Assembly (NCBI RefSeq): GCF_001425055.1
Contig: NZ_LMDK01000006.1
Span: 1 to 64,000 of the forward strand
Direction: 5' to 3'
Origin: Pelomonas sp. Root1237
Lineage (GTDB): Bacteria; Pseudomonadota; Gammaproteobacteria; Burkholderiales; Burkholderiaceae_C
DNA: 64,000 bases
The notes under the pieces were generated by a model. That model was given only the letters and a program-made list of their open reading frames with translations, did no database searches and was not told the DNA's origin. Below are positions 272 through 50,813 of this stretch, piece after piece. The translations under genes and the position numbers were made by a program. Numbering within the stretch: the stretch's first letter is position 1; every line of letters starts with the position of its first letter.

Positions 272-2047
272 TCAATGCACAGCTACTGCGCTGCGAGCAA
301 CGACCAGCTCCTTCTCGGCGGTGGCCTGAGGATCGTCGCTGTCCAGGATGTGCGGCAGGGCCGTAGCAAGGCGCTGCGCGTCAGCGCGCAGGATGCGCTG
401 CTTGACGGCAGGAATCTGTGACGGGTGCATGGAGAAACTGCGCAGGCCCATGGCCAACAGCAGTTCGGTAAAGACGGGGTCGCCCGCCATCTCGCCGCAA
501 ACGCTGACGCCCTTGCCCGCCGCGCGCGCCTGGGCGATGGCTTGGCTGATCAGCTGCAGCACTGCCGGATGCCAGGGATCGTAGAGATGGGCAACTGCTT
601 CATCGGCACGGTCGATGGCCAAGGTGTACTGGATCAGGTCGTTGGTTCCTATGGAGACGAAATCCACATGCCGCAGCAGCAGCGGCAGCATGACCGCTGC
701 GGCCGGGATCTCGATCATGACGCCCAGCTCGACGCGCGTGTAGGCATGGCCGGCATCGGTCAACTGCTGCTGCACCTTGCGCACCGTCTCGACGATTTGC
801 CGAACTTCCGACAGATGCGCCACCATCGGGATCAATAGTCTGACCTTGCCGAAGGCGCTCGCTCTATAGATGGCGCGCAGTTGCTGACGGAACATGCTCG
901 GCTCGGCCAAGCTCCAACGGATGGCACGCAGGCCCATCGCCGGGTTGAGCACATGCTCGTGGCGCAGTTCGTTGACCGTCAACCGATCCAGCGGCTTGTC
1001 CGCCCCCACGTCGACGGTGCGAATCGTGACCGGCATGCCCTTCATCGCCACGACGGCGGCCTTGTAGGCAGCGAACTGTTCTTCCTCACTGGGCAGTTCG
1101 CCCTCACGGTTCATGAACAGAAACTCGCTGCGGAACAGCCCGACGCCCGTGGCCCCCGATTCCACTGCCGCCTCCGCGTCGGCAGGCATCTCGATGTTGG
1201 CGTGCAATTCGATGTGCTCGCCATCCAGCGTGACGGCCGGCGTGTGCCGCAGGCGCCCCAGCCGCGCGCGCTCCAGTTCGCTCTGGCGCTGGCGGAAGCG
1301 GTACTCCTCCAGGACGATGGGCGAAGGATTGACGATGACCGTGCCCGCGTCGCCATCGATGATGACCCAGTCATCCTGCCTGATGAGGCGCGAGGCCTCG
1401 CGAGTGCCCACCACCGCCGGGATATCCATGCTGCGCGCGACGATGGCGGTGTGGGAGGTCTTGCCGCCAATGTCGGTGATGAAGCCGCGGAAGACGCTGC
1501 GCTTGAACTGGATCATGTCGGCCGGCGCAATGTCGGCGGCCACCAGCAGCAGCGGATCCTCGCCCGCAAAGTCGCGTGGCGTGACGGGCGCAGGCGTGTC
1601 ACCCCGCTCCTGGGACAGCGCACGCAACACACGCTCGACGACCTGCTCCAGGTCAGCCTTGCGCTCGCGCAGGTAGTCATCTTCCATCTCGTCGAACTGG
1701 CGTGCCAGCACCTCGAGCTGGGCAGACAGCGCCCATTCCGCGTTGTAGTGCCGCTCGACGATCCACTGGCTGGCGCTCCCGGTCAGGGCCTCGTCGTGCA
1801 GCAGCATCAGGTGCACGTCCAGCAAGGCCGCGAGTTCGTGGGGCGCGTCGCCTGGCAGTTCATCCCTCAACGTCTCCAGCTCCAGCACGACGGCGTCGCG
1901 TGCGCGCAGCAGTCGCCCAATCTCGGGCTGGACCTCGTCGGGCGTCACGAAATAGTGGGCGACGTCGACGCGGCTGGAGGCGATCAGCACCGCGCGACCG
2001 ATGGCCACACCACGTGAGACCGCAATGCCGAACACCTGAAAACTCAT
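272..2047 (-). CDS. ptsI: Phosphoenolpyruvate-protein phosphotransferase (PTS Enzyme I)
   Basis: Enzyme I takes phosphate from phosphoenolpyruvate onto a histidine and passes it to HPr; it is cytoplasmic. The 591-residue protein has the usual family length. The phospho-histidine lies in GGKTSHTAIVARS (His about 199), followed by the PEP-binding TIM-barrel part with GATGVGLFRSEFLFM and the C-terminal SIGTNDLIQYTLAIDR and CGEMAGDP motifs. I chose the ATG at 2047 because GGAGGG stands just upstream; an upstream extension of 14 codons lacks this. There is no GAF domain, so it is a classical EI rather than the nitrogen-type PtsP, although databases often label this family ptsP. HPr and EIIA lie upstream on the same strand but are separated from it by an acyltransferase gene on the other strand. 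Confidence 0.95.
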   Translation of the reverse strand: MSFQVFGIAVSRGVAIGRAVLIASSRVDVAHYFVTPDEVQPEIGRLLRARDAVVLELETLRDELPGDAPHELAALLDVHLMLLHDEALTGSASQWIVERHYNAEWALSAQLEVLARQFDEMEDDYLRERKADLEQVVERVLRALSQERGDTPAPVTPRDFAGEDPLLLVAADIAPADMIQFKRSVFRGFITDIGGKTSHTAIVARSMDIPAVVGTREASRLIRQDDWVIIDGDAGTVIVNPSPIVLEEYRFRQRQSELERARLGRLRHTPAVTLDGEHIELHANIEMPADAEAAVESGATGVGLFRSEFLFMNREGELPSEEEQFAAYKAAVVAMKGMPVTIRTVDVGADKPLDRLTVNELRHEHVLNPAMGLRAIRWSLAEPSMFRQQLRAIYRASAFGKVRLLIPMVAHLSEVRQIVETVRKVQQQLTDAGHAYTRVELGVMIEIPAAAVMLPLLLRHVDFVSIGTNDLIQYTLAIDRADEAVAHLYDPWHPAVLQLISQAIAQARAAGKGVSVCGEMAGDPVFTELLLAMGLRSFSMHPSQIPAVKQRILRADAQRLATALPHILDSDDPQATAEKELVVARSAVAVH

Positions 2048-2161
2048 CAGCACCCTCCGCAGATCAATCCCCAATGTAGCTTGAGCCACAGGGCTGCCGC
2101 GTCATGGTTTTTTCATAGGGCCTTCACCGCTGCGTCAAACCGCCGCCCCAGCATACCGGGC

Positions 2162-2965
2162 ATGAACCGCAGTTTGATCGTCACGCATGCACAGCCGCAT
2201 GCCCCCGCCCTGCACCGCCCGGCGCGCACCTCTTCCCCCCGCCTCAGCGTCAGCTGGGCACGCAGCGAAACGGAAGTTCGCGAAGCCCAGGCGCTGCGCT
2301 ACCAGGTCTTCGCCGTCGAGATGGGCGCCCGCCTGCCCACACCCAAGGGTTCACCGGCCGGGCTGGACGTCGACCTCTTCGACGCCTATTGCGAGCATGT
2401 CCTGGTGCGCGCCGGGGGCGAGGACGACGAGCCCGGCCCTGTCGTCGGCACCTACCGCGTGCTGACGCCGTCCGCCGCCAAACGCGCCGGCGGCCTGTAC
2501 AGCGACACCGAGTTCGACCTGACGCGCCTGCGCGGCCTGCGTTCCCGGGTCGCCGAGATCGGCCGCTCCTGCGTGCATGCCGACCACCGCAGCGGCGGCG
2601 CCATCATTGCGTTGTGGGGCGCGCTGGCCGAGTTCATGGCCCGCAACGGTCTGGATACCGTCATCGGCTGCGCCAGCGTCAGCATGCGCGATGGCGGCCA
2701 CTTCGCGGCCAGTCTGTGGAAGCAGATCGCCGCCAACCACCTCGCGCCCATCGACTGCCGGGTGCGCCCGCGCCTGCCGCTGCCCATCGAGCACCTGCGC
2801 CAGGACCTGGTGGTGGAACCGCCGGCCTTGATCCGCGGCTATCTGCGCTGCGGCGCCAAGTTGATGGGCGAGCCGGCCTGGGACCCCGACTTCAACACCG
2901 CCGACCTGCCGCTGCTGCTGCGCACGGCCGATCTGCCGGCGCGCTTCAAGCGCATCCTCGGCTGA
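2162..2965 (+). CDS. GNAT-type acyltransferase of the OlsB/hemolysin-like family
   Basis: The 267-residue protein has the Acetyltransf_5 pattern: an early R-YQVFAVEMGA segment, a central VVGTYRVLTP strand and EIGRSCVHADHRSGGAI as the acyl-donor-binding region. Members include ornithine lipid synthase OlsB, which puts a 3-hydroxyacyl chain from ACP onto ornithine; others acylate unknown amines. No OlsA partner gene is visible nearby, so the substrate is unresolved. The start at 2162 (MNRSLIV) is preferred; the open frame extends further upstream. Its TGA abuts the end of ptsH on the other strand with no gap. It sits between ptsH and ptsI, which are usually adjacent in this order. Confidence 0.75.
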   Translation: MNRSLIVTHAQPHAPALHRPARTSSPRLSVSWARSETEVREAQALRYQVFAVEMGARLPTPKGSPAGLDVDLFDAYCEHVLVRAGGEDDEPGPVVGTYRVLTPSAAKRAGGLYSDTEFDLTRLRGLRSRVAEIGRSCVHADHRSGGAIIALWGALAEFMARNGLDTVIGCASVSMRDGGHFAASLWKQIAANHLAPIDCRVRPRLPLPIEHLRQDLVVEPPALIRGYLRCGAKLMGEPAWDPDFNTADLPLLLRTADLPARFKRILG

Positions 2966-3235
2966 TCACTGGCCTTCGCCGAACTTGTCGTTGACGAGGG
3001 CGGTGATCTGATCCTGCGCGGCTTGTTCGTCCTCGCCATCAGTCTCCAGTTCGACTGTCGCGCCGATGCCGGCGGCCAGCATCATGACGCCCATGATGCT
3101 CTTGGCGTTCACGCGCCGGCCGTTGCGGCTCATATAGACCTCGCACTTGAAGCTGCCGGCCAACTTGGTTAACTTGGCCGAGGCGCGCGCGTGAAGACCC
3201 AGCTTGTTGCTGATGGTGAGGGTGGACTTGATCAT
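2966..3235 (-). CDS. ptsH: Phosphocarrier protein HPr
   Basis: An 89-residue HPr. It carries the active-site histidine in KLGLHARASAK (His15), which accepts phosphate from EI, and the regulatory serine motif NAKSIMGVMML (Ser46), which HPr kinase can phosphorylate. Its ATG overlaps the stop of the EIIA gene by four bases (ATGA), so translation of the pair is probably coupled. No sugar-specific EIIB/EIIC permease genes are seen here, which suggests a regulatory role, as in other betaproteobacteria (inference). Confidence 0.95.
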   Translation of the reverse strand: MIKSTLTISNKLGLHARASAKLTKLAGSFKCEVYMSRNGRRVNAKSIMGVMMLAAGIGATVELETDGEDEQAAQDQITALVNDKFGEGQ

Positions 3236-3630
3236 TCGTCGGGGGGCAAGGGAGGCATGGCGACGATGCCGGTGACCGCGCCCTGCATGGCGCGCCGTGC
3301 CAGCTCGGTCAAAGGCTTCTGGCTGGCATAGCAGAGGGTGCGCCACAGCATGGGCACGCTGACACCGCTGAGCACCTGCACCTGCTCTCCCGCCAGGCGC
3401 TGAGCACCGTTGCTCGGCGTGGCGCCGAACACATCGGTCAGCACCAACCACTCGGGCTGGTCGGCCCGGGCCATCAGCGCGCGGGCAGCTGTCTCGACGT
3501 CGTCCGCGCTCATGCCAGCATCAACATCCAGCACGGTCAGCGTCGGCGCACAGTCGGGGAAGGTGTGTTCGGCCACCTGCCGCAGGGCGGAGGCCAGCGG
3601 TGCGTGGGCGATCACAAGCAGGTTGGGCAT
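3232..3630 (-). CDS. PTS EIIA component, mannose family
   Basis: A 132-residue single-domain EIIA of the mannose/sorbose family. The N-terminus MPNLLVIAHAPLASAL carries the probable phosphorylated histidine (His9), and VLTDVFGATPSNGAQRLAG is the conserved second motif. It accepts phosphate from HPr. In Burkholderiales a stand-alone EIIA(Man) with HPr and EI forms a signalling relay rather than a transporter. It is first in the EIIA-HPr pair and overlaps ptsH by four bases. Confidence 0.88.
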   Translation of the reverse strand: MPNLLVIAHAPLASALRQVAEHTFPDCAPTLTVLDVDAGMSADDVETAARALMARADQPEWLVLTDVFGATPSNGAQRLAGEQVQVLSGVSVPMLWRTLCYASQKPLTELARRAMQGAVTGIVAMPPLPPDE

Positions 3631-16578: not shown

Positions 16579-16607
16579 AAAAAAAAGCCCCGGTTCAAGA
16601 CCGGGGC
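16579..16607 (-). terminator. Intrinsic terminator reading leftwards
   Basis: An 8-bp GC-rich stem (16587-16594 with 16600-16607), loop TCAAG, and on the minus strand a run of eight T. It is oriented to stop transcription coming from the hemB side, not that of hemB itself. Confidence 0.75.
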
Positions 16608-16700
16608 CGAGAAAGCCTTATCGCTGTCATCACGCTAAGGCTCCTGCTCAGGGAGGAAAAGCAGGGAACGACCACCTTGCGGCTATCATTCAAAAACAAG
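16579..16700 (-). ncRNA. Candidate small RNA ending in an intrinsic terminator
   Basis: Reading the minus strand, GCCCCGGT at 16607-16600 (complement) and ACCGGGGC form an 8-bp stem with a 5-base loop, followed directly by eight T residues (the A-run at 16579-16586). No minus-strand gene ends here: the nearest upstream region is the hemJ-hemB intergenic space. Upstream of the terminator a second hairpin (GCCTTA at 16635-16640 region pairing with TAAGGC) is visible. Hence an independent short transcript is likely. The 5' end is not defined; a TTGACA on the minus strand at 16753-16748 could be a distant -35 box. Confidence 0.45.
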
Positions 16701-36654: not shown

Positions 36655-36739
<85 letters not shown>

Positions 36740-41463: not shown

Positions 41464-42444
41464 TCAGGCGGCCGACTGGCCGCGGCATGCGTCCATCAAC
41501 CTCGTCAACCCCAGCAACGCATCCAGCATCGGCGTCGCCACGCCGAGCTGCTGCGCCAGCTCCCGCGGCGCCGCCAGCAATGCGTCGGTCTCGATAGGCC
41601 GCCCCGCCTCGATGTCCTGCAGCATCGAGGTCTTGAAGGCCCCGAGCGAGCGCGTGATGGTGTGCCGGTCCTGCGGCGTCTGGGCGATCGGGCAGCCCAT
41701 GCCTTCACCGACCTCGGCGGCCTCCGCCATGATGGCCGTCGTGAACTCGCGCACGAGGTCGTCGTCCAGGATGCGGTCCGTCGTGGCGCGGGTCAGCGCC
41801 GAGACCGGGTTGGTCGTCATATTGCCCCAGAGCTTGTACCAGGCGTCACGCTGGATGCTCTCGGCCGCCTTGGCCTCGAAGCCGGCGTCGCCGAGCAGCG
41901 CGATCAGCGCATCGACGGCCAGGCTCGTGCCGCCCGTGGCCTCGCCGATCAGCAGGCCGTTGCCCATCACGTGGTGGACCCAGCCCGGGCCGCGCAGCGC
42001 GCAGCTGGCATGAACGACGCAGCCGATGACGCGCTGGGGCGGGATCAGCGCGGCGATGCGGCCATCGGGGTCCACGCATTTCAGCGTCAGCCCCTGCACG
42101 GGCAAGCCGGCCGTGAACCACCATGGCAGGCCGTTCAGCGCCGTGAGCACGCGCGTGTCCGGCCCGCAAAGCTGGGCGACCTGGGCCGCGACGCCGGCGA
42201 TGGCCGGGCCCTTGACGGCGAGGATGACCAGGTCCTGCAGGCCGAGCTCGGCGGCGTCGCCGGTCACGCGCAGCGGCGCACGCCAGCTGTCCTCGCCGCT
42301 GTCCAGCCGCAGGCCGTGCTCACGCACGGCCGCCAGCGTGTCGCCGCGGGCCAGGGCGCTGACGGCCACACCTTCGACGCGTTGCAGATGCGCGGCCATC
42401 CAGCCGCCGATGGCCCCCAGGCCGACGATACAGACCTTAAACAT
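41464..42444 (-). CDS. panE: 2-dehydropantoate 2-reductase-like enzyme
   Basis: A 326-residue ketopantoate reductase-family protein. The dinucleotide-binding loop is MFKVCIVGLGAIGGWMAAHL; the catalytic lysine lies in IQRDAWYKLWGNMTTNPVSA, and the later NPV and serine-rich DRHTITRSLGAFKTSMLQDIEAGRPIE region, cited here in part as SMLQDIEAGRPIE, is typical. It makes pantoate for coenzyme A, or reduces a related 2-oxo acid; paralogues are common. The ATG at 42444 is followed at once by a large palindromic element upstream. Confidence 0.88.
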   Translation of the reverse strand: MFKVCIVGLGAIGGWMAAHLQRVEGVAVSALARGDTLAAVREHGLRLDSGEDSWRAPLRVTGDAAELGLQDLVILAVKGPAIAGVAAQVAQLCGPDTRVLTALNGLPWWFTAGLPVQGLTLKCVDPDGRIAALIPPQRVIGCVVHASCALRGPGWVHHVMGNGLLIGEATGGTSLAVDALIALLGDAGFEAKAAESIQRDAWYKLWGNMTTNPVSALTRATTDRILDDDLVREFTTAIMAEAAEVGEGMGCPIAQTPQDRHTITRSLGAFKTSMLQDIEAGRPIETDALLAAPRELAQQLGVATPMLDALLGLTRLMDACRGQSAA

Positions 42445-42446
42445 GG

Positions 42447-42716
42447 GGGGGCCTGCTCGCCCTCAGGGGGGCGATGCGAGAGGGGCTGCGCGGGTGCAGG
42501 GCTAGGCGTGGCGCTGAAGCCCGGGCTTGCCGCCCGGGCAAGGCGCCCAACAACGCCATGCGCCCGCGCAGCCCCTCTCCCGAAGGGTTGTCACTCAAAA
42601 GCCCGCGCGCGGCGTTGCGCAGCCTCGCTGGGGACGACCCCAGCTTCGACTTCGCGCCTTGCTCGCGGGTTTTTGAGTGGCAACGCATCCGTTCCCCTGA
42701 GGGTGAGCAGGCCCCC
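42447..42716. repeat. Large three-stem palindromic element A
   Basis: 270 bases. The outer arms are 42447-42469 and 42694-42716 (22 of 23 paired). Inside are two long hairpins: 42478-42494 with 42563-42579 (17 of 17) capped by GCCCGGG/CCCGGGC (519-525 and 533-539), and 42588-42607 with 42664-42683 (18 of 20, both exceptions G-U compatible) capped by GCTGGGG ACGA CCCCAGC (42627-42644). No coding sequence. It separates divergent panE and the protease/hydrolase fusion gene. Confidence 0.85.
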
Positions 42717-46298: not shown

Positions 46299-46733
46299 AT
46301 GAAATACCTGCACACCATGGTCCGCGTCGAAAACCTCGACGCGTCGATACGCTTCTACCGCGACGCCCTCGGCCTGCACGAGGTCAAGCGCTCGGAGCAT
46401 GCCGCCGGCCGCTTCACGCTCATCTACCTCGCCGCGCCAGGCGACGAAGACGCCCAGGTCGAGCTGACCTACAACTGGCCGGACGCCGACGGCAAGGCAG
46501 AGACCTACACCGGCGGCCGCAACTTCGGCCACCTGGCCTACGCCGTGGAAGACATCTACGCCGCCTGCCAGAAGCTGATGGACCACGGCGTGACGATCAA
46601 CCGCCCGCCGCGCGACGGCCGCATGGCGTTTGTGCGCTCGCCGGACGGCATCTCCATCGAGCTGCTGCAGGCCGGCCCGTCGCTGGCGCCGGCCGAGCCC
46701 TGGGCGTCGATGCCCAACACCGGCAGTTGGTAA
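46299..46733 (+). CDS. gloA: Lactoylglutathione lyase (glyoxalase I)
   Basis: A 144-residue metal enzyme that converts the methylglyoxal-glutathione adduct to lactoylglutathione. The ligands are visible: His5 (MKYLHTMVRVENLDASIRFY), Glu in AQVELTYNW, His in NFGHLAYAVEDI and Glu in GISIELLQAG. The length matches Ni-type bacterial GloA. The start at 46299 is supported by the conserved N-terminus. Confidence 0.92.
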   Translation: MKYLHTMVRVENLDASIRFYRDALGLHEVKRSEHAAGRFTLIYLAAPGDEDAQVELTYNWPDADGKAETYTGGRNFGHLAYAVEDIYAACQKLMDHGVTINRPPRDGRMAFVRSPDGISIELLQAGPSLAPAEPWASMPNTGSW

Positions 46734-46746
46734 GCCCGCGCCGGGC

Positions 46747-49304
46747 GTGGTGCAGGCTGAAGCGGGCGACGCCGCGACGTTGACCGGCCTGCGGCTGGGT
46801 GCCTGGGTGCTGTGGCGGCGCATCGGCCGCGGCGGCCTCGGCGAGGTCTGGGAGGCCGAGCGCGCCGACGGCCTCTACCAGGCCAGCGCCGCCATCAAGC
46901 TGCTGCACGGCGACAGCGCGACGCCTGCCGTCGCGCGGCGCTTCCTGCGCGAGCGTGCAGCGCTGGGCCGCCTCACGCACACCGGCGTCGCCGCCCTGCT
47001 GGACGCCGGCGTGCAGGCGCCCCATGCCTACCTGGTGCTGGAGCTCGTCGACGGCCTGCCGCTGGCCGAGCATGCGCGCGCCCAGCTCCCCACCGTGGCG
47101 GACCGCGTCACGCTGCTGCTGCGCGTGGCCGAGGCGGTGGAATACGTTCATGCGCGCCTGGTCGTGCATCGCGACCTCAAGCCCGCCAATGTGATGGTCA
47201 CGGCCGCAGGCCTGCCCAAGCTGCTGGACTTCGGCCTGGCGGCCTCTCCCGGTCAGGCCGTGGACGAGGCCCGCGCCGGCCTGACACCGGCCTACGCAGC
47301 CCCCGAGCTCATCGAGAGCGGCGACGCCGGCACGGCGGTGGACGTCTTCGCCCTGGGCGTCATGCTTTTCGAGCTGCTGACGGGCCGGCTGCCCTTCGGT
47401 GCGCGTGGCGACAGCCGCGCGGCGCTGGAACACGCAGTGCTGCACCAGCCCCCGCATCGCTTCGCCGCGTTGCTGGGCGCGCCCGATGACGAGGACGGCC
47501 CCGGACGCCCGCGCGACGCGCAGCGCGCCCGCGGCGACCTCGAGGCCATCGCCGCCAAGGCCCTGCACAAGAACCCGGCCGAGCGCTATGTCGGCGTGCA
47601 TGCCTTCATCGAGGACCTGCGGCGCTGGCAGACCCAGCGCCCCGTGATGGCCAGGCGCCGCCTCAGCCTGCGGCACCGCACCGCCCTGCTGCTGCGCCGC
47701 CACACGCTGCTGGCCGGCCTGTCCGTCCTGCTGCTGGCCACCCTGACGGCCGGCATCGCCGCCAGCCGCTGGCAATGGCGCGAGGCCGAGTTGGCACGCC
47801 AGCGTAACGACAGCGTCGCGCGCTTCATCACCGAGCTGCTCGCCGGCGGCAGCCTGCCCCGCCAGGGCCGCATGCCGTCGGTGCTTGAACTGCTGGACGA
47901 CAGCCGCGGCCGCCTGGACGAGTTCGCCAACGACCCCGCGACGCGGCAACGGCTGCTGGAGGTGCTGTCGCGCACCTACATGGCCCTGAACCGCTTCGAC
48001 CATGCCCTGCCGCTGGGCGAGCAATGGCTGGCGCTGGCTCGCCAGCAGCATGGCGAGGACGAAGTGGCGGTGCTGCAGGCCCGGCTGAGCCTGGGCCAGG
48101 TGCACCAGATCATGGGCAACCACGACGATGCCATCGCGCTGCTGGAGCCGATCGCGGCGCCGCTGGCACGCCGTTTCGGCCCCGACAGCGAGGCGGTGCG
48201 CCAGCAGCAGTTCATCCTGGCCGCCGACTACATGCACGTCCGCCGCCTGGACGACGCCGAACGCGCGCTGGAACGCGTGCGCGTGCTGACCGACAGGCTC
48301 CACCCCGGCGACGACTACGAACGCGCCGACTACCTGCAGAACCTCGGCGTATTGCGCCAGCGCCAGGGCCGCCTGGCCGAGGCGCTGGACCTCGTACGGG
48401 CGACGCAGCCGATGTGGGCCAGCACCGACCCGCGGCTGACCCTGCCCGTGCTGGTGCTGCGCACAGCGAGATTTCAATGCTGACGCTGAACGCGCTGTTC
48501 GACGGCATCGACACACGCGCCGCGCCGCTGCTTGCCGACATCCGCAGCAAGCTCGGCCCCGGCAACGACCTCGCGCTGCAAGCCGCTACCGGCAGGGCCG
48601 AGGCGCTGCAGCTGCAGGGCCGCCATGCCCAGGAGGTGCGCACCCGCCAGGCGCTGCTGGACGGCGCAAGTGCCGACGGCCTGGCCCCGGACTCGCTGCT
48701 GATCTACCGCGCCGAACTGCTGCTCGCGCAGGCGCGTCTGGGCCAGCCCGACCTGAATGCCCTGCGCGCGCTGATGACCGAGGCCGCCGCGCTGGACGGC
48801 GGCCCGCGCGGCCGCAGCCTGCTGCTGGTGGCCGATGCCGCCCTGGCCGCCGGCAACCCGGCCCTGGCCGCCGAGGCCGTGCAACACGTGCGCGACAAGC
48901 CACTGTCCCCCGCCCTCGCCCTGCCCGGCAGCCGGCTGGCCAAGGTCGAGGGCCGGCTGGCCCGCACCCGGGGCGAGCTGGCCCGCAGCGCCGAGCTGCT
49001 GAGCCAGGTGCGCGGCGTCGGGCGCGTCCATGCCTGGGGCTCGCGCCTGGATGCGGCACTGACCGCCGTGCTGCGAGGCTCGCCCGAGGCGCCTGCCCTG
49101 CTCGCACAGGCGCGCCAGGCCCGGCCCGCCAGCCTGCCCGACAGGCACCCGCTCGACCTCGTCAGCCATTGGCTGGAGGCGCGCCAGGCCGCGGGTCGTG
49201 ACGACGACCCTGCCGTGCGTGCCGCCTGGGCGGCGCTGGCCGGCGCACGCGGCCCTGGCGCGGCAGCACCCACGCTGGGCAACCTCGGCGGGCTTTTCCC
49301 CTAG
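46747..49304 (+). pseudogene. Frameshifted Ser/Thr protein kinase with TPR-like C-terminus
   Basis: The first frame (46747-48483, about 578 residues) encodes a kinase: loop RIGRGGLGEVWEAE, Lys in AAIKLL, HRDLKPANVMV, DFGLA and APE, then a membrane helix (LLAGLSVLLLATLTAGIAA) and the start of a repeat-rich sensor part. It stops at 48481-48483 after VLRTARFQC. The second frame carries on from EISMLTLNALFDGI to 49304 with the same composition. One added base, or removal of one CA from CGCACAGC near 48463-48470, would join them. It may be a real inactivation, a sequencing slip or a programmed shift. The GTG start is uncertain. Confidence 0.75.
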
Positions 49305-49566
49305 GAGTCTGCGCGACAGAGGCGTGGCCCGCGCCGGGGCGAGTTGCGGGGCGATGCAAGGCGCCGGCGAGGCGTGGGTCGGGACCCACAACGAGCCGGC
49401 AACGCCGCAGCGCCCTGCAAATCGCCCCGGCCCTTCGGGTTGAGGCAGGCAGGGGCGCATGCGGCGTTGCTCGTCGTTGCGGGCGCGAGCCCGCGGCCTC
49501 CTCGCGCCTTGCCTGCGCCCCTGCCTGCCTCAACGCGGGCCACGCCTCTGCCGCGCAGACTCCTAG
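49301..49566. repeat. Large three-stem palindromic element B between convergent genes
   Basis: 266 bases. The outer arms are 49301-49333 and 49534-49566 (32 of 33 paired) and each includes the TAG stop of the flanking gene. Inside, one stem pairs 49348-49368 with 49395-49428 imperfectly and is capped by GTGGGTC/GACCCAC (49374-49389); a second pairs 49439-49459 with 49514-49534 (21 of 21). No T-run and no coding sequence. Same plan as element A. Confidence 0.88.
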
Positions 49567-50813
49567 CCAAGCGCCAGCGTGTCGGCCCAGATGTTCTCGG
49601 CCCAGGCCAGCGCGATCCCAGCCTCGGCCGACGTCGCGGCCGGCGACACGCCCCCGGCACCGGGCACCGCCTTCATCGTCTTTTCTGCCGCGTCGTACTG
49701 ATGGACGGAAGCCACATGCATGGCCTCGGTCGGCGTGACAAAGCTGTAGCAGGTGTTCATCACCACCGGCGCCGGGTTCACCGCCTCACCCTTGAGCAAC
49801 TGCAGCACGGCCGCCGCCGCGAGCTTGGCCTGCTGGTTGGCGAGATGGCCCGACTTGGGCATGCCCGGCGCCGAGAAAATCGCGTCGCCGACGACATGCA
49901 CGCCCTGCGCGGCCTGCGCCTGCATCGTCAGCCAGTCGACGCCGACCCAGCGGCGGTTCACGTTGGCAAAGTCGCGCGCCAGATCGCCGGCACGCTGCGG
50001 CGGGATCAGGTTCAGCACATCGGCCTTGACGTCCTCGAACTCGAAGCGCGCCGTGCCGTCGGCCAGCACTTCCTTCAGCTCGGCATTCGGCCGGTACTCG
50101 AGCACGCCGGCGTGGTGCTGCGCAAAGGCGCGCTCGAACAGCGCCTTTTTGCTCTGGATCTCTGGGTTGGCGTCCAGCACCAGCAGCTTGGCGCGCGGCT
50201 TGGCGCGACGCAGATACGAGGCGATCAGGCAGGCCCGCTCATAGGGCCCTGGCGGGCAGCGATAGGGCGCCTTGGGAATGCTCATCAGCACGACACCGCC
50301 ATCGGGCAGGGCTTGCAGCTGGCGGCGCAGCGCCAGCGTCTGGGCGCCGGCCTTCCAGGCATGCACGGCACGGCCGCTGTCGAAGGCGGCGGCGAGGCCG
50401 GGCACGGCGTCGTTCATGAAGTCGATGCCGGGCGACAGGATCAAGCGGTCCCAGCCCAGGGTGCCGCGGTCGGCCAGCTGCAGGGTCCTGGCCGCGGGGT
50501 CGATGCCCACGACCTCGCCGCGCAGGCGCTTGACGCCCTGGGCCTCCAGGCCCGCATAGCCATGGCTGATGCTGAGCGGGTCGCGCACGCCGGCGAGTAC
50601 GAGGTTGGACATCGGGCAGGAGATGAAGCCTTCGTTGCGCTCGACCAGGGTGACGTCGACCGCCGCGCCGCCCCAGAGCTTGAGATAGCGGGCCGCGGTC
50701 GCGCCGCCAAAGCCGCCGCCGACGACAACGACTCGGGCAGTCGGGCCCGATGGCGTTGCACAACCCGCCAGCGCCAAGCCACCGGCCACGACCAACTGGC
50801 GCCGCGCAATCAT
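49563..50813 (-). CDS. fccB: Flavocytochrome c sulfide dehydrogenase, flavoprotein subunit
   Basis: A 416-residue FAD protein with a Tat-like or lipoprotein signal (MIARRQLVVAGGLALAGCAT). The FAD loop is ARVVVVGGGFGGATAARYLK; the redox cysteines are in GFISCPMSN and in PKAPYRCPPGPYERACL; the C-terminal FCSD flavin-binding domain contains CYSFVTPTEAMHVASVH. FccAB oxidises sulfide to sulfur and feeds electrons to cytochrome c. It overlaps the cytochrome gene by four bases. Its stop codon lies inside the arm of palindromic element B. Confidence 0.88.
   Translation of the reverse strand: MIARRQLVVAGGLALAGCATPSGPTARVVVVGGGFGGATAARYLKLWGGAAVDVTLVERNEGFISCPMSNLVLAGVRDPLSISHGYAGLEAQGVKRLRGEVVGIDPAARTLQLADRGTLGWDRLILSPGIDFMNDAVPGLAAAFDSGRAVHAWKAGAQTLALRRQLQALPDGGVVLMSIPKAPYRCPPGPYERACLIASYLRRAKPRAKLLVLDANPEIQSKKALFERAFAQHHAGVLEYRPNAELKEVLADGTARFEFEDVKADVLNLIPPQRAGDLARDFANVNRRWVGVDWLTMQAQAAQGVHVVGDAIFSAPGMPKSGHLANQQAKLAAAAVLQLLKGEAVNPAPVVMNTCYSFVTPTEAMHVASVHQYDAAEKTMKAVPGAGGVSPAATSAEAGIALAWAENIWADTLALG

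Follow-up and report, generated by a model that had tools for sequence, protein, structure and literature searches.

The 64,000-nucleotide stretch of Pelomonas sp. Root1237 DNA analysed here (the window) carries a 266-bp palindrome at 49301-49566, lying between the convergent ends of a kinase-TPR gene and a flavocytochrome c sulfide dehydrogenase-like gene (Table 1). The kinase-TPR gene is divided near ~48460 into two frames, 46630-48483 and 48024-49304, and is a single frame in four relatives; the split probably reflects a frameshift, real or from assembly. The flavocytochrome protein is matched at E <= 1e-60 in 27 of the 40 genomes searched for it.

The outer arms of the palindrome, CTAGGAGTCTGCGCGACAGAGGCGTGGCCCGCG and its partner, agree at 32 of 33 positions, and ungapped extension gives 40 nt at 90%. 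Two inner stems, 49333-49357/49407-49431 with an 88% match and 49436-49462/49511-49537 with a 93% match, are enclosed by these arms, and the inner part contains a GTGGGTC/GACCCAC cap. Thus the near-perfect 33-bp inverted repeat, the two further stems with their cap, the TAG stops of both flanking genes within the arms and the absence of a T-run beside the palindrome, all drawn from the letters in a preliminary description of this DNA, are borne out. Folding, which that description had advised, yields energies far below those of shuffled sequences for RNA of the + strand (-225.5 kcal/mol, z = -15.2), RNA of the - strand (-219.4 kcal/mol, z = -13.6) and DNA of the + strand (-133.1 kcal/mol, z = -15.1), with 0 of 200 shuffles as low in each case. 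The small central CCC/GGG hairpin has two pairs when folded as RNA and three when folded as DNA, the family consensus also giving three; together with the outer stem and the two inner stems it would form the fourth arm of a predicted four-way junction.

Table 1. Positions in the window of the palindrome, its flanking genes and a second related element (R1 is a covariance model of one stem; 66 stems, the window's own included, went into building it)
Feature	Position	Strand	Remarks
Kinase-TPR gene, 3' part	48024..49304	+	convergent; stop in left CTAG
Flavocytochrome c sulfide dehydrogenase-like gene	49563..50813	-	convergent; PF21706, PF09242; stop in right CTAG
Left CTAG	49301..49304	.	putative target-site copy; TAG 49302-49304 is the stop of the + gene
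Right CTAG	49563..49566	.	putative target-site copy; CTA 49563-49565, reverse complement TAG, is the stop of the - gene
Left outer arm	49301..49333	+	terminal inverted repeat spans the first ~20 nt and differs at one position from the end of the IS1182-family insertion sequence (L080 1878-3433)
Right outer arm	49534..49566	-	first 20 nt inwards identical to the IS1182-family insertion sequence end
Inner stem with core motif	49334..49430	+	R1: 49333-49430, 74.2 bits, E 4.9e-14
Motif parts, + inner stem	AAGGCG 49358-49363; GCAACGCCG 49399-49407	+	
Central mini-hairpin CCC-TTC-GGG	49431..49439	.	AACCC-NNN-GGGCC on - strand
Second inner stem, same motif	49440..49533	-	R1: 49440-49534, 74.9 bits, E 3.5e-14
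Second core-family element	42447..42716	.	different terminal repeat, GGGGGCCTGCTCRCCCTCAGGGG
Core stem, second element	42479..42577	+	R1: E 2.8e-9
Core stem, second element	42588..42684	-	R1: E 5.6e-11

Insertion site and cognate insertion sequence

Four relatives (G016, G010, G018, G005) carry the C-terminal part of the kinase gene adjoining the flavocytochrome gene with no element between them, and the window flanks, when joined at one CTAG, align with all four; the empty site is a single CTAG in G016 and G010 and has no CTAG in G018 and G005. This comparison of the convergent pair for presence or absence, which the preliminary description had proposed, overturns its suggestion of an element fixed between the genes, at least across the genus. 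Its proposal of a miniature inverted-repeat element (MITE) has fared better, inasmuch as ends of a cognate insertion sequence (IS), CTAG on both sides, insertion-free relatives and many copies are all found. Since CTAG is its own reverse complement, the duplication is argued from the empty site. Before insertion one CTAG would have held both overlapping stop codons, and its 4-bp duplication would leave each convergent gene with a TAG; a MITE that duplicates CTAG would thus place the TAG stops of both genes within its arms.

The cognate IS was found by way of the 20-nt end, which was sought in 60 genomes with up to 2 mismatches and is present in 15 of them, including a pair 1.55 kb apart in the same-genus genome G010. 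This pair bounds an IS (L080 1878-3433, ends CTAGGAGTCTGCGCGGCAGAAC) whose ORF 1947-3260 encodes a transposase of the IS1182 family (E 2.4e-113; 379.6 bits, cut-off 270). Like the window element the IS starts and finishes in CTAG and shares with its right arm an exact run of 20 nt, and it likewise supplies stops on both sides. Ends of the same class, CTAG-GAGNCTG, enclose IS1182 transposases in Cyanobium (L279, L291) and adjoin IS1182 fragments in Massilia and in the same-genus genomes G004 and G018. Likeness to L080 stops after ~20 nt and R1 does not match that IS; an internal-deletion derivative of IS1182 was rejected because the interior is not homologous to the IS. A MITE of IS5 alone, whose target is given as YTAR and would fit CTAG, was dropped for the window element when IS1182 emerged as the family of its cognate IS. 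In the window's own genome, G000, the A-type end (one of four end labels, A to D, set by eye or by loose patterns) has no further occurrence at up to 2 mismatches, so that mobility there would be past or would need a diverged transposase.

The palindrome thus shows terminal repeats in common with an autonomous transposon, a precise insertion bounded by CTAG and lacking in four relatives, an interior with no capacity for a transposase (266 bp being at most 88 codons) and multiple dispersed copies. On the strength of the cognate IS ends, the CTAG on both sides, the empty site and the many copies, it is probably a MITE, which an IS1182-type transposase would have moved into CTAG in trans, with what would be an inherited core and ends that can be exchanged.

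Among the matches listed, 52 of 129 CTAG-ended elements have one side or both where a coding-like frame stops at the terminal TAG. Counted by side, such a frame ends there on 59 of 258 sides, versus 5 and 3 in the other registers; the set comprises 118 listed pattern matches, with and without the core described below, plus 11 hand-picked elements (the window element, copies from its own genus and family, and the IS), and the frames counted are of at least 100 codons. Since disruptive insertions would presumably be lost, this excess appears to show compatibility rather than target choice alone. CTAG is scarce in the whole window, with 19 occurrences where trinucleotides predict 70. The tRNA-Leu gene 36655-36739 contains two of them, and a third lies 24 bases beyond it. 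In same-genus genomes, several copies have CTAG on one side or on neither.

A host-domesticated bidirectional terminator, or an mRNA 3'-end stabiliser whose fold is kept by selection, would account for a very stable fold that begins at both stop codons, for the many listed elements that start at a coding-like stop, and for short palindromes with the same ends (58 bp in L092, 53 bp in L093). This reading is nevertheless unlikely, for a T-run is absent, presence of the element at the locus varies among relatives, one core with several transposon ends across phyla is left unexplained, and the second window element lies directly beside the ATG of the - strand ORF 41464-42444 and not at a stop. The MITE reading accommodates a terminator role, or an RNA role, as what could be a secondary benefit.

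The conserved core and its copies

By blastn, the 6.43-Mb genome to which the window belongs contains two more copies that are nearly complete, along with several partial ones. Of 60 genomes searched, this one included, 33 match at E <= 0.01; the search of the genome and its relatives that had been advised thus turned up copies in both. Blastn with the window element of plasmid and phage collections gave no match. A pattern scan of named genomes for CTAGGAGNCTG...CAGNCTCCTAG at set spacing found at least 118 stretches, and among the matches listed 70 of 118 are complementary at 16 or more of 22 further arm positions. A central hairpin of the CCC-NNN-GGG type is present in 65 of these 70 good-arm matches versus 6 of the 48 others, again among the matches listed; the 42 weak-arm matches without the centre may be MITEs of the same end class lacking the core, or chance. 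The listed taxa include Rubrivivax, Ramlibacter, Roseateles, Piscinibacter, Inhella, Variovorax and Sulfuriferula, together with MAGs of Alphaproteobacteria, Acidobacteria and Eremiobacterota, for which single assignments may be wrong. A related element is inserted at orthologous positions in two species (L070 in G006 and L074 in G003), a pair that reflects vertical inheritance of one copy. An assembly artefact or a chance inverted repeat is scarcely credible in the face of this orthologous pair, of at least 118 pattern matches with 70 having good arms, and of 0 of 200 shuffles in each of the three folds.

The interior is organized as two ~97-nt stems that are mirror images of one motif around an AA-CCC-NNN-GGG centre. 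In an alignment (A1) of 56 elements, i.e. 41 good-arm matches, the window element and 14 copies from its own, same-genus and same-family genomes, the A-CCC-NNN-GGG centre is invariant and AGG/ACG motifs are near-invariant in each stem, on opposite strands. RNAalifold on A1 gives 83 pairs, of which 75 show two-sided changes. Paired cells amount to 89.4%, whereas 500 shuffles give 64.3 (sd 0.5) and sliding the structure gives 36-43%, and 0 of 500 shuffles reach the observed value on any of five measures, the consensus structure being derived from the tested alignment itself and so favouring the pairing score to a degree. A lack of covariation in relatives and confinement to one assembly had been named as counting against a structured element, and neither is the case: covariation is present and the element occurs in many genomes. 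The interior constitutes a conserved core of mirror symmetry, with a predicted four-way junction.

R1, a model of 101 positions, was built from 66 of 78 listed stems, none of them from elements with C- or D-type ends. It finds at least 74 stem matches in the own genome, corresponding to at least 55 elements, 19 of them with both stems, these counts being lower bounds from scoring the best 150 of 12,782 candidates. In the phylum at least 88 of 398 sampled genomes, this one included, match at E <= 1e-4, also a lower bound since stricter filters were applied and 10 candidates were scored per genome. At E <= 0.001, 14 of the 16 genomes behind the named loci match; in a MAG assigned to Acidobacteria the matches number at least 123, in one assigned to Elusimicrobia at least 18. 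Thiorhodococcus and Cyanobium are the two remaining genomes, where R1 detects nothing; both carry core-less elements of the same end class. The second window element has a core 94% identical to that of L345 in the same genome. An alphaproteobacterial MAG (G067, locus L201) has at least 89 core-stem matches; the same MAG holds 99 partial NF033551 matches, many of them near-identical frames of 329 codons.

Whether the symmetry is kept at the level of DNA or of RNA is reflected in the kinds of mismatch, as RNA of a given strand should be enriched in G-T over A-C. In the outer arms of the 56 elements, aligned with Watson-Crick pairing only, 1801 of 1870 pairs (96%) are Watson-Crick and the mismatches include 18 G-T versus 30 A-C; since G-T does not exceed A-C, the outer-arm pairing looks to be DNA-level. 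The inner stems, read in motif orientation, give G-T versus A-C of 20 to 11 and of 37 to 5. A G-A mismatch recurs. Adjoining the motif, in columns 19-37 of alignment A2, 11 pairs sum to 62 G-T versus 13 A-C, with a structure that counts G-U as a pair, and the other 16 pairs of the model alignment have 37 versus 45. The inner motif may thus matter as a single strand, of DNA or RNA.

These counts bear on the possibility that the core specifies a functional non-coding RNA and owes its spread to transposition. The two-sided changes at 75 of 83 pairs, the conserved internal motif and the G-T excess in the 11 motif-adjoining pairs would suit such an RNA, but the nearly perfect Watson-Crick outer arms, the balance of G-T and A-C in the other 16 pairs, the presence of the motif on opposite strands of the two stems and the lack of an Rfam match within elements (15 loci at gathering, 5 loci at E 0.05) speak against it, and it seems slightly less probable still than a terminator. 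One Rfam search gives only five sub-gathering microRNA matches, E 0.056 to 0.33. A known Rfam RNA family was rejected, as no curated model matches within the elements of the loci searched and other matches fall outside them; an RNA junction as the primary product was set aside because the outer-arm mismatches do not favour it. Of the RNA three-way junction put forward in the preliminary description the junction itself stands, conserved by two-sided changes, although it becomes four-way with the CCC/GGG hairpin and RNA as its substance is not specifically supported.

Probably exchangeable ends

Outer arms around R1 matches are of about a dozen types as judged by eye, and 40 loci resolve into 32 distinct elements with an arm pair, 7 repeats of another locus and 1 without arms. 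An IS has been identified for three end types: A (IS1182), C (IS5) and D (IS1380-like). C-type ends, GGGCCTGTTAACACTACGG and variants, belong to an IS5-family IS of 825-826 bp in G000 and G023 whose transposase is split over two frames (NF033580, cut-off 110; 100.7 and 135.1 bits in G000, 107.7 and 102.8 in G023). Elements with C-type ends share the run TAGGGCCTGTTAACACTAC with this IS, as read off the sequences, and R1 finds both stems in 7 of 7 such elements, with the matching IS5-family IS in the same genome. D-type ends, CCTAGATCCGGCAGTTG and variants, are those of a Rubrivivax IS flanked by TTCAG on both sides; it is called IS1380-like at E 9.4e-48 and 162.8 bits, below the NCBIfam cut-off of 180, and has Pfam DDE_Tnp_1_4. 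R1 finds one stem each in 9 of 9 D-like elements (E 9.6e-9 to 1.6e-4), six of which start with CCTAG and three (L013, L044, L050) only with CCT; exact 5-bp duplications flank 4 of the 9 (TTCAA three times, ATAAT once).

B-end MITEs of ~90-190 bp with another palindromic interior occur in G023 and G032 (L081-L091), and in the comparison of 34 sources with R1 that also covered the C- and D-type elements there was no match in five of these (L081, L082, L084, L086, L089), in three core-less pattern matches or in the three ISs. In shorter B-end palindromes without the core (L092 350-407, L093 310-362) an open frame terminates in TAG at each of the two ends; these palindromes could be core deletions or precursors.

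In a quick tree of 84 cores, made without bootstrap, the A, B and C labels of 65 need 8 changes, the minimum being 2 and the shuffled mean 29.6, with the 19 cores that have other ends left uncounted; end type is thus clustered yet switching, and well-supported branches force at least 2 changes each for A and B. Because the A, B and C ends loosely resemble one another (CTAG-GRGNCTGT), some of the variety of ends may have arisen as related transposases diverged; the D type is the only one clearly distinct in both end and duplication, and R1 fits just one of its two stems.

From these comparisons of sequence the core family is best read as a superfamily of MITEs, wide in distribution, that keeps its core while its terminal repeats can be exchanged. 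The core would be the inherited unit, its terminal repeats being exchanged or rebuilt, and one core family would thereby exploit several transposases. A change of ends might come about by template-switch correction between the arms, a process described for quasipalindromes, or by insertion of the core into short end-to-end palindromes such as the 53-58 bp examples. The least certain step is that the fold would act as a DNA hairpin or cruciform when strands separate, either bringing both ends together or templating the correction of one arm from the other; correction of arm from arm would keep the arms matched and spread a change of end to both sides. A more tentative proposal, which we consider somewhat less probable than not, is that selection acts on the core itself: a palindromic DNA module of ~200 nt, inherited across phyla, would have repeatedly acquired or remodelled the ends of unrelated transposases, at least those of IS1182, IS5 and IS1380-like type, perhaps through insertion into, or templating of, palindromic transposon ends. 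If so, the core would parasitise whichever transposase is present, and the element class would be defined by its core and not by its ends.

Relation to known elements

Bacterial MITE families are as a rule defined by their ends, with interiors that vary, and each is usually tied to one insertion sequence. The window element resembles the MITEs of bacterial IS families in being short and transposase-free, with ~20-bp ends common to an IS, a duplication and many copies; unlike them its family keeps an interior core across several end types and phyla. A conserved non-coding core with the ends of several transposase families clashes with the picture of one IS per MITE, and makes it testable how short elements change transposase and what palindromic structure adds to mobility or to host tolerance. 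ERIC, NEMIS/Correia and RUP elements are, like the window element, palindromic and RNA-folding near genes (70-300 bp), and none of them is known to have more than one end type or a wide host range. The box order of an integron attC site presumably makes that a poor fit.

Likeness between MITE and IS at the borders alone is reported as common (PMC3852290, PMC3119063) and some structured MITEs are also named (PMC3733652). The window element has a 20-nt identical end and CTAG flanks in common with the IS1182 family, and differs from it in lacking a transposase and in an interior unrelated beyond the end. ISPse1 of that family is entered as 16/16 and 4 in a table of PMC3281130, which we take as the repeat and duplication length. 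REPs and REPINs and the GTAG/CGTC palindromes, according to PMC3733652, are often inverted pairs and often lie between convergent genes, REP dimers being found inside longer palindromes in a few species and CGTC repeats having no dedicated transposase. Two inverted hairpin units, high copy number and a frequent position beside gene ends would fit a REPIN-like pair of REP hairpins mobilised by a HUH/RAYT enzyme, yet this is a very improbable reading for ~97-nt units, not of 20-40 bp, set inside terminal repeats that match DDE insertion sequences and with target duplications indicated. The PATEs of Haloquadratum, as described in PMC3119063, also bear palindromes and no transposase, and 52-bp forms that have lost the core occur. 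They have neither terminal inverted repeats nor duplications, and their kinship is with IS605 elements; identity with PATEs was rejected, the window element having terminal inverted repeats of IS1182 type and a putative CTAG duplication.

No description of the core was found in the literature searched, where six core sequence strings gave zero matches. CTAG with its double stop suggests a simple rule for entry between convergent genes in compact genomes with the stops kept. A covariance model of ~100 nt suffices to annotate copies, none of which Rfam matched in the loci examined. Elsewhere in the window Rfam does recognize RF02837 anti-hemB (Burkholderia RNA 7), at 16579-16667 on the - strand with 67.6 bits.
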